Origin: an uncultured Bacilli bacterium
Lineage (GTDB): Bacteria > Bacillota_I > Bacilli_A > RF39 > UBA660
Reading direction: 5' to 3'
Assembly (NCBI GenBank): GCA_947624095.1
Contig: CANQIR010000026.1
Location: 1 to 11,284, forward strand
DNA: 11,284 bases
Under the pieces are notes generated by a model that worked only from the letters and a program-made list of their open reading frames with translations, ran no database searches and was not told the DNA's origin. The position numbers and the translations under genes were made by a program. Below, in pieces: positions 756 to 2,344 of the stretch (position 1 is its first letter; each line of letters starts with the position of its first letter).

Positions 756-787
756 AAAAAATAAAGCCGTAATGGCTTTTTAATTTT
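756..787. terminator. Bidirectional rho-independent terminator
   Basis: Stem AAAGCC (763-768) pairs with GGCTTT (774-779) around a 5-nt loop. On the minus strand the stem is followed by a run of six T (761 down to 756), and on the plus strand by T-rich sequence (777-787). It lies between two convergent genes. The minus-strand side has the better U-tract. Confidence 0.75.
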
Positions 788-1250
788 CCTCAATCCTATC
801 TCTTGCATAATTAGCTTTTTCAAGTTTAAATATCAGTTGCAATATTTCCTCTTTCTTTGCTGTATCAATAGCTTGTACTTTTTCATTACGAAATAAAAAT
901 CTTTTCAAATCCTGTACCTCCATAGCAACTTCCACATCATCTAATACTTCCTCATAATAAGCAAAAGCTCTTTCAAACTCTTCATCTAATCTAATCATAA
1001 TTTCATCAAACTCTTCCAAAGATATATAAGCTTTTCCTAATACTTTAAATATTTCTGCTTCATTTTTTAAATGATTAAAAAATCCCTGCATCATTCTGAC
1101 CATTTTTCTTCTTAATTCTAACTCATTAGGATATAAAAATAAACATTTCAAATATAAACAAATAACATCTTTATACATCATATATTTAACTTCATTACTT
1201 TGTTTTCTAGCTTCCTTAATATCTGCTTTTACAATTTCTTCATCGCTCAT
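780..1250 (-). CDS. Conserved-type hypothetical protein, all-helical
   Basis: I do not recognise the family. From ATG 1250 the product is 156 residues, soluble, highly charged and rich in Glu, Lys and Arg, with no signal peptide or membrane segment. The sequence looks like consecutive amphipathic helices (for example the EFERAFAYYEEVLDDVEVAMEV region), so an all-alpha protein is inferred. An in-frame TTG four codons upstream (1262) is rejected: it lies at the predicted transcription start, and a GGTGAT ribosome binding site sits between it and the ATG, at 1260-1255. The gene has its own strong promoter and is divergent from spoVS. It ends with TAA directly against a terminator, so it is monocistronic. 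No function is proposed. Confidence 0.8.
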   Translation of the reverse strand: MSDEEIVKADIKEARKQSNEVKYMMYKDVICLYLKCLFLYPNELELRRKMVRMMQGFFNHLKNEAEIFKVLGKAYISLEEFDEIMIRLDEEFERAFAYYEEVLDDVEVAMEVQDLKRFLFRNEKVQAIDTAKKEEILQLIFKLEKANYARDRIEEN

Positions 1251-1268
1251 CAAAATCACCAAAGAAAT

Positions 1269-1296
1269 ATTATAAATATTCCCATCAAATAGTCAA
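1269..1296 (-). promoter_or_regulatory. Sigma-A-type promoter for the minus-strand gene at 780-1250
   Basis: On the minus strand the -35 box TTGACT (1296-1291) and -10 box TATAAT (1274-1269) are separated by 16 bp. Transcription should begin near 1262, giving a leader of only about 11 nt that begins at the GGTGAT ribosome binding site. The -35 box overlaps a 9-bp direct repeat. Confidence 0.8.
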
Positions 1297-1317: not shown

Positions 1318-1349
1318 TCCCCTCATATAAATTAACTATAGAAAGGGGA
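1318..1349 (+). promoter_or_regulatory. Possible SD-sequestering hairpin in the spoVS leader
   Basis: TCCCCT (1318-1323) can pair with AGGGGA (1344-1349) across a 20-nt AT-rich loop. The right arm is the core of the spoVS ribosome binding site, so folding would hide it. Six pairs with four G:C is modest stability, and whether the left arm is transcribed depends on an unmapped start site. No clear sigma-A promoter for spoVS is visible on the plus strand. Confidence 0.4.
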
Positions 1350-1356
1350 ATAAAAT

Positions 1357-1620
1357 ATCACAACATTAAAAGTCGGATCGAAATCCAATCCCAATTCCGT
1401 AGCAGGTGCTTTAGCTAATATATTTCGGGAAACCAATGATCAAGTCGAAATTCAATGTATTGGTGCAGGCGCTTTAAATCAAGCAATAAAAAGTATAGCC
1501 ATTGCTCGTGGCTTTGTCGCCCCATCTGGTAAAAATTTAATTTGCATCCCAGCTTTTACCGATATTATTATCGATGGCGAAGAACGCACTGCTATCAAAT
1601 TAATAATAGAAAATCGCTAG
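1357..1620 (+). CDS. spoVS: Stage V sporulation protein S (SpoVS), apparent ATC start
   Basis: SpoVS is a small Alba-like, probably nucleic-acid-binding protein needed for late sporulation and septation control in Bacillus; it also occurs in some non-sporulating lineages. The frame gives 87 residues, against 86 in B. subtilis. It carries the strongly conserved blocks PNSVAGALA (11-19), IGAGALNQA (35-43), IAIARGFVAPSG (47-58), ICIPAFTDI (62-70) and DGEERTAIKLI (73-83). A stop (TAA 1351-1353) lies just upstream in frame, and the frame has no ATG, GTG or TTG. The ATC at 1357 falls exactly where other SpoVS proteins have their initiator Met. TAGAAAGG (1339-1346), with GG at 1347-1348, gives a very strong ribosome binding site 8 nt before it. 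The intact reading frame argues against a pseudogene; a base error at the start codon remains possible. The gene converges on 1623-2294 with two bases between stops. Confidence 0.9.
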   Translation: MTTLKVGSKSNPNSVAGALANIFRETNDQVEIQCIGAGALNQAIKSIAIARGFVAPSGKNLICIPAFTDIIIDGEERTAIKLIIENR

Positions 1621-1650
1621 TATTATCCAAAATAAATAAATACTAGTGAT
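1613..1650. repeat. 12-bp inverted repeat spanning two convergent stop codons
   Basis: The arms at 1613-1624 and 1639-1650 match at 11 of 12 positions, with a G:U pair in the plus-strand RNA, around a 14-nt loop. The stop codons of spoVS (1618-1620) and of the opposing gene (1625-1623) both lie in the left arm. On the minus strand the stem is followed by a U-rich run (from 1612 down), so it may terminate the minus-strand transcript. On the plus strand no U-tract follows. Confidence 0.55.
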
Positions 1651-2294
1651 GCAATAATTACTCCAATAAAGCTGATACCAATCGCAATTATAAATGCATT
1701 GACATATCCAGCTTTCTCCTTAGGCAAAGTTAGTTTAAACTTTGCCTCTTTTTCTTTTTTAAATTTTTCTTGAAAACCTAAAGCTTGTTCTCTCATTCCA
1801 TAATATGTTTGCAATTCATTTTCTTGTATTCTACTAGGAGCTTCATTTATCGCTACTAATTCCATTTCATCTTGAAATTCCTGAAGTAGAGGACTTACAT
1901 CTGGTGTCAAATAATCTTGATAACACATCATATCATAAATAAAAGCATTGTAACCATTAACAATATTTTCTGGTCGATAATTAGTTGGCGCTCCATCTAA
2001 TACTTGATAAAAACAATCTCTTAAATTTCTTTCCTGTCCCTGTGTCGCCAATTGCTGAATACCTAGTATATGAACAGCGACTATATCAAGAAAATCCCTT
2101 GGTTCCATCAAACTTAAATCTTGACTAAAAGAAGTATAATCTCCCATTAAGGACATTAAACTAAAATTCCCCAAATCAAGCGTCTTATCGCCATAACTAA
2201 GTCGATTATTATTAAAATGCACATCGCGAAGCTGCGGATTTTGACTTACTATATACATCATTGCTCTTTGATTTAAAGATTCAATATATTCCAC
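1623..2294 (-). CDS. Hypothetical tail-anchored membrane protein
   Basis: I do not recognise the family. From GTG 2294 the product is 223 residues: a soluble, mixed N-terminal region of about 165 residues, a short Lys/Glu-rich segment (FKKEKEAKFKL), and one strongly hydrophobic C-terminal helix (about 196-222) ending in IYFG. With no N-terminal signal, this predicts a tail-anchored protein with its main domain in the cytoplasm. An earlier GTG at 2303 is disfavoured: AAGGTGA (2306-2300) overlaps it and is correctly spaced as the ribosome binding site for GTG 2294. The gene is divergent from sufB and converges on spoVS. A TATAAT-like box (2323-2318, minus) lacks a good -35 box. Confidence 0.75.
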   Translation of the reverse strand: MEYIESLNQRAMMYIVSQNPQLRDVHFNNNRLSYGDKTLDLGNFSLMSLMGDYTSFSQDLSLMEPRDFLDIVAVHILGIQQLATQGQERNLRDCFYQVLDGAPTNYRPENIVNGYNAFIYDMMCYQDYLTPDVSPLLQEFQDEMELVAINEAPSRIQENELQTYYGMREQALGFQEKFKKEKEAKFKLTLPKEKAGYVNAFIIAIGISFIGVIIASLVFIYFG

Positions 2295-2344
2295 TAACTT
2301 CACCTTCTATCATACTAATTATATCGTATCAAAAAATAGCTCTA

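Follow-up and report, generated by a model that had tools for sequence, protein, structure and literature searches.

A genus of RF39-type Bacilli in which spoVS probably starts at a weak AUH codon

How is a conserved gene translated when its reading frame offers none of the usual start codons? The question is raised by a stretch of 11,284 nucleotides (the window), which is contig 26 of the 127 contigs of a 0.93 Mb, 77% complete genome (G000) of an uncultured RF39 bacterium. On the plus strand of the window, the spoVS coding frame runs from 1357 to 1620, i.e. 88 codons counting the TAG stop (1618-1620), and contains not a single ATG, GTG, TTG or CTG. An ORF search limited to ATG, GTG and TTG starts listed no ORF of at least 60 amino acids at this position. 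The frame nevertheless belongs to the SpoVS family, as the PF04232 profile matches it with 122.3 bits (cut-off 24) over profile positions 2-82 of 83. A preliminary description of this DNA had already claimed a frame intact over 87 codons with a family match to both ends, an in-frame TAA just upstream and the lack of ATG, GTG and TTG. We find the same, with the TAA at 1351-1353, and CTG is absent too. The gene appears to be monocistronic: it lies between a divergent ORF (780-1262, minus strand) and a convergent ORF 3' of it (1623-2303, minus strand), so that there is no adjacent upstream co-directional gene with which spoVS could couple.

Where, then, could translation begin? The ATC at 1357-1359 aligns with the initiator methionine of the family and is preceded, 8 nt upstream, by a long Shine-Dalgarno (SD) sequence, TAGAAAGGGG (1339-1348, plus strand), with a duplex energy of -12.2 kcal/mol. 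This SD combines TAGAAAGG (1339-1346) with GGGG (1345-1348), and the gap from GGGG to the ATC measures 8 nt; the position and the spacing given in the preliminary description are thus borne out. The TAA, two codons 5' of the ATC, excludes an upstream in-frame start; a second in-frame stop, TAG, is found at 1339-1341, and the 95 nt upstream of the ATC hold no ATG, GTG or TTG in any frame. An SD energy of -12.2 kcal/mol or lower is reached by 11% of 194 homology-supported genes of G000. All energies were calculated with the general bacterial 16S tail as anti-SD, which may not be exactly that of the host; 16S 3' tails were sought in six genomes, of which one gave a match, a partial one, and the tail of G000 was not readable.

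The leader is identical between G000 and its relative G002 over 31 nt (1320-1350, plus strand), a stretch that holds both CATATAAATT and the SD. We speculate that CATATAAATT could be a promoter -10-like element, a putative and unproven assignment that would imply a short leader. A promoter scan of 1200-1700 returned as its strongest match a sigma-70-like one (1269-1296, minus strand, 11 of 12), which is directed to the divergent neighbour and faces away from spoVS, and 5' of spoVS a single weak plus-strand match (1228-1256, 9 of 12); neither was taken as evidence. RNA folding of 1330-1400 gave nothing unusual (z 0.40).

Is the missing start codon a peculiarity of this one assembly? SpoVS was matched in 328 of 386 family genomes, and starts were read in the three genomes of the genus (G000, G001 and G002, one species each) and in 62 others, weighted to the best-scoring matches. 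At the aligned start place we found ATC in G000 and G002 and ATA in G001, with no standard start near and with the same gap of 8 nt between GGRG and ATH in all three. All 65 scoreable copies from the 62 other family genomes (63 loci, one of them with three copies; locus L127 of G017 was left out because its contig ends inside the gene) have an ATG at or close to the aligned place, at most four codons before it and at most two after (two after in L123). Nine class-level loci have ATG in eight cases and GTG in one, and ATH in none. The only other ATA among 80 spoVS loci, in L061, has an ATG two codons upstream and was set aside. A loose DNA pattern for ATH-started spoVS matched 385 of the 386 family genomes, roughly as many as its control did, and was uninformative. 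As a side observation, a single contig (C30, L114) of the family member G038 carries three copies of a spoVS-like gene in some 7 kb.

The preliminary description had proposed to align orthologous loci, and took ATG in all close relatives as the sign of a base error or a recent private mutation; the genus relatives aligned here carry ATC or ATA, without ATG. Upstream of the aligned place (-95 to -1), G002 has no ATG, GTG or TTG in any frame and G001 has only an out-of-frame GTG at -80. The runs ATT ATT ATA in G001 and ATA ACT ATC in G002 stand at the aligned place. Codons 1-2 read ATA GCA in G001, ATC GCA in G002 and ATC ACA in G000; most of the relatives that start with ATG have GAA as their second codon. 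Between G000 and G002, 45 of 87 codons are identical, and 39 synonymous changes stand against 3 non-synonymous ones (97% protein identity). Of the fourfold sites, 23 of 36 are changed in this pair, and 21 of 32 and 18 of 34 in the other genus pairs, which suggests that synonymous divergence is close to saturation. Since an ATH start was retained while 18/34 to 23/36 of the fourfold sites came to differ, an error in the sequence or a private mutation can hardly account for it, and its recurrence in the two other genomes of the genus goes beyond chance.

This start codon appears to have left its mark on annotation. Among the best 120 listed of 8000 scored matches from 5.8 billion predicted proteins, none is more than 87% identical to SpoVS of the window; the public assemblies contain a 97%-identical spoVS locus (CANQMM010000027.1). 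P0001, the best-scoring predicted SpoVS of the genus, reads MKGEKNITTLK and has Ile at the aligned start place. It was probably called from a codon before the SD, so that the SD itself seems translated; the gene would then come from a fourth genome and have been given the wrong start. The earlier claim that standard gene callers miss spoVS therefore holds largely (at most 87% identity among the matches listed) but not for P0001, which was called, apparently with the wrong start.

Is spoVS the only gene of the genus without a standard start? We scanned stretches of G000, G001 and G002, and of G014 as a family control, for ORFs that span 60 codons or more and have a homologue in at least one of the other three genomes. 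'No standard start' was scored where neither ATG, GTG nor TTG occurs between the stop codon that precedes the ORF and a point 25 codons beyond where homology begins. Such ORFs numbered 3 of 198 in G000 (rnpA, DUF2229 and spoVS), 4 of 222 in G002 (rnpA, DUF5305, spoVS and DUF2229) and 4 of 199 in G001 (rnpA, spoVS, DUF2229 and an ORF that seems to be truncated) against 0 of 170 in G014, fractions that are not rates, because some loci were chosen on purpose (the window, spoVS and DUF2229 of G002, DUF2229 of G001). This last ORF (L416), whose alignment to its G002 match begins no earlier than residue 78 of the latter, seems to lack its 5' part and was not counted as a case. By its construction the criterion overlooks ATH genes that happen to have a standard codon close by, e.g. 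infC or an adhesin-like candidate in G014. A standard start is offered by 608 of the 619 homology-supported ORFs of the genus. ATG starts amount to 167/198 in G000, 202/222 in G002 and 174/199 in G001 compared with 161/170 in G014, and non-ATG starts are commoner in the genus (76 of 619, including the 11 with none) than in G014 (9 of 170; Fisher p 0.008). When starts were mapped against G014 orthologues, the mapped start had a standard codon close to it in 60 of 62 cases in G000 and 49 of 54 in G002; the true ATH case was spoVS, and the remainder arose from shifted alignments or from an ill-chosen start in the comparison gene.

Beyond the preliminary description, the AUH state is thus genus-wide and common to rnpA and a DUF2229 gene. 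The rnpA gene starts with ATT in G000 (L256:6573-6935, minus strand), ATA in G001 (L340) and ATC in G002 (L192:9610-9951, plus strand); outside the genus, all 33 family loci and all 12 class loci have a standard start codon, the reading having covered 48 of the 58 genomes with a match. In G022 and G007, rnpA seems to contain in-frame stops; these fall at its 3' end and do not point to recoding. A short DUF2229 gene (CoA-enzyme activase-like) reads ATT AAA after TTGAGGTGATTTTTT in all three genomes (L403 in G000, L402 in G002, L401 in G001). Short DUF2229 loci elsewhere have ATG in 12 of 12 cases, a count that leaves out ten long or partial loci and whose members, 25-41% identical over the first residues, may not be orthologues. 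The weak AUH start that spoVS appears to share with rnpA and this third gene would lead gene finders to overlook spoVS.

The infC gene was read in 53 of the 58 genomes with a match. Its ATH follows a strong SD in all three genomes of the genus, where codons 1-2 are ATA GCA, and in 49 of 50 others. The sole infC locus of the 53 with ATG is L379 (G060), which would be without the classic autocontrol by IF3; a few infC loci (L328, L333 and L335) contain, in addition, a TTG further upstream that comes with a strong SD. Single ATH candidates were seen for a DUF5305 gene of G002 (L202:7871-8806, plus strand), while other DUF5305 genes start with ATG (G000), GTG (G001) and ATG (G002); for a DUF5412 gene of G000 (L245:303-635, plus strand, ATA), a gene found in 1 of 21 genomes, G000 only; for a G001 ORF that we take to be a symporter-like gene (L421, from 1315, plus strand), with ATT where G002 has GTG; and for a TED/SpaA adhesin-like gene of the control G014 (L265:9818-11347, minus strand).

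Are the AUH starts accompanied by unusually strong SDs? The spoVS SD reaches -12.2 kcal/mol in G000 and G002 and -13.1 in G001, compared with a median of -9.7 in the 65 family copies with ATG (p 0.008). Likewise, the rnpA values in the genus are -13.4, -12.3 and -11.1 against -7.2 over 33 family loci (p 0.012), and those of DUF2229 are -9.9 in all three genomes against -6.8 over 12 (p 0.21). These p-values overstate the case, as the three genomes are related and represent few independent events. The combination of a strong SD with a weak start, stressed in the preliminary description, is real and exceeds the family median, but an SD as strong is found in 9% of the 65 copies with ATG, and the nine class-level copies have a median of -11.4.

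How else could these observations be explained? A base-calling error or private mutation at 1357 might be suspected in a single MAG of 77% completeness, but with two separate genomes that read ATC and ATA without ATG, and with P0001, apparently from a further genome, giving Ile at the aligned place (KGEKNITTLK), its probability is practically negligible. A silenced pseudogene that had lost its start would explain the absent standard codon; it is extremely unlikely in view of an intact frame, 97% protein identity to G002 with 39 synonymous versus 3 non-synonymous changes, and a conserved 31-nt leader with a strong SD. Translation might also begin elsewhere, or ribosomes might enter the frame by a shift from an ORF further upstream, and the runs at the start of spoVS indeed make the exact AUH codon uncertain in G001 and G002. 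The alternatives there are likewise AUH, however, and with the TAA two codons upstream in G000, and the 95 nt before the aligned place free of ATG, GTG and TTG in G000 and G002 and holding just the out-of-frame GTG in G001, we consider such a start very unlikely. A changed initiator tRNA or IF3, which would read AUH as an ordinary start so that the codon would not be weak, could account for several genes at once. Yet the initiator tRNA of G002, the one that was examined, is of the usual type (anticodon CAT, C1:A72, GGG:CCC stem pairs), none of the IF3 columns with at least 90% agreement in 50 other sequences is changed in all three genus sequences, and the great majority of genus ORFs (608 of 619) keep a standard start option. 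Given the usual IF3 columns and the usual tRNA, we hold an altered initiation machinery to be highly improbable.

A neutral relaxation deserves more weight. Here, the AUH start would be real but without regulatory use, the ATG having drifted to ATH and been tolerated in a small-genome gut lineage. The generally commoner non-ATG starts of the genus (76/619 against 9/170) fit this picture, as do the isolated ATH candidates (DUF5305, DUF5412, the symporter-like gene and the adhesin-like gene of G014) and the wandering identity of the codon, ATC/ATC/ATA in spoVS and ATT/ATA/ATC in rnpA; moreover, the conservation of ATH could be the retention of one ancestral change per gene. On the other hand, three genes keep ATH in three of three species despite large synonymous divergence, with ATG only one base away, and in two of the three genes the SDs exceed those of family relatives with ATG. 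We regard neutral relaxation as a possible explanation, although the less probable one.

We consider it likely that spoVS has a genuine AUH start like those of infC and ccpN, a weak one that should be sensitive to IF3. In the genus, spoVS would be translated from AUH, namely AUC at 1357-1359 in G000, AUC also in G002 and AUA in G001. An ordinary initiator tRNA would pair imperfectly at AUC, while the long UAGAAAGGGG SD would keep the 30S subunit in place. Initiation would hence be weak and exposed to rejection by IF3, as in infC, and IF3 would probably throttle spoVS output. The AUH state would most likely be older than the split of the three species and have been retained since, perhaps because a low, buffered output of SpoVS was favoured. 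It is from these comparisons that we infer initiation at the ATC, low output, IF3 sensitivity and a selective reason for the AUH codon.

How does spoVS compare with known systems? IF3 is reported to destabilise initiation complexes at codons besides ATG, GTG and TTG, by which E. coli infC regulates itself (PMC5472188). Control of spoVS by IF3, as put forward in the preliminary description, is in these terms an expected property of an AUH start; a response of spoVS to the IF3 level, IF3 control as physiology and an IF3 'regulon' are what we infer beyond it. Like infC, spoVS of the genus has AUH after a strong SD, and its first two codons in G001 are those of infC. The resemblance of the spoVS starts (ATA GCA, ATC GCA) to that of infC (ATA GCA) is suggestive, though it counts as one evolutionary event. 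Unlike infC, which is AUH in 49 of 50 loci outside the genus, spoVS is AUH in the genus only among the loci examined, and while E. coli infC is autoregulatory (PMC5472188), spoVS does not encode IF3.

In S. aureus, AUH starts are described for infC (AUA), cvfC1 (AUU), ccpN (AUA) and citZ (AUA), that of ccpN being conserved to B. subtilis, and reporters of cvfC1, ccpN and citZ differ between canonical and non-canonical codons with p <= 0.0002 (PMC13009471). With ccpN, cvfC1 and citZ, spoVS shares a non-canonical start, a long SD and a low-GC Gram-positive host. The genes are different, however, and of the 3' extended SD motif as defined in that study (AGGNAT, AGGNGT, GGGNAT or GGGNGT, at most 20 nt 5'), inspection by eye found GGGNAT in G000 and none in G002 or G001. 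Non-canonical starts lower initiation in the S. aureus reporters (PMC13009471). A further parallel is Streptomyces sigR, itself a regulatory gene with a weak start that gene callers misannotate and that is repressed by IF3, as tested via mutants and an extra infC copy; unlike spoVS, it starts with GTC (GUC, not AUH) and is followed by its anti-sigma gene (PMC5472188). Among the matches listed, titles and abstracts of the open-access literature included none on AUH starts of spoVS or rnpA.

What would an AUH start mean for these bacteria? The dose of SpoVS matters in B. thuringiensis, where deletion and overexpression each disturb sporulation (PMC8510167), and RF39-type Bacilli are predicted to sporulate in an altered manner (PMC10868615). 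Few bacterial genes with AUH starts have been characterised, and at least three conserved genes with AUH where relatives have ATG form a natural series in which IF3-linked selection may be set against mere tolerance. Through its start codon alone, a conserved gene may vanish from sets of predicted proteins or be given a wrong start, and profiles that record which sporulation genes are present or absent are affected by this. Tentatively, and with more doubt than confidence, we speculate that spoVS, rnpA and the CoA-activase-like DUF2229 gene might form a small translation-fidelity regulon under the AUH/IF3 gate of infC. If true, this regulon would be invisible to annotation pipelines restricted to ATG, GTG and TTG, and the dose of SpoVS (in septation or sporulation), the supply of RNase P and the level of IF3 would shift together with the free IF3 per ribosome.
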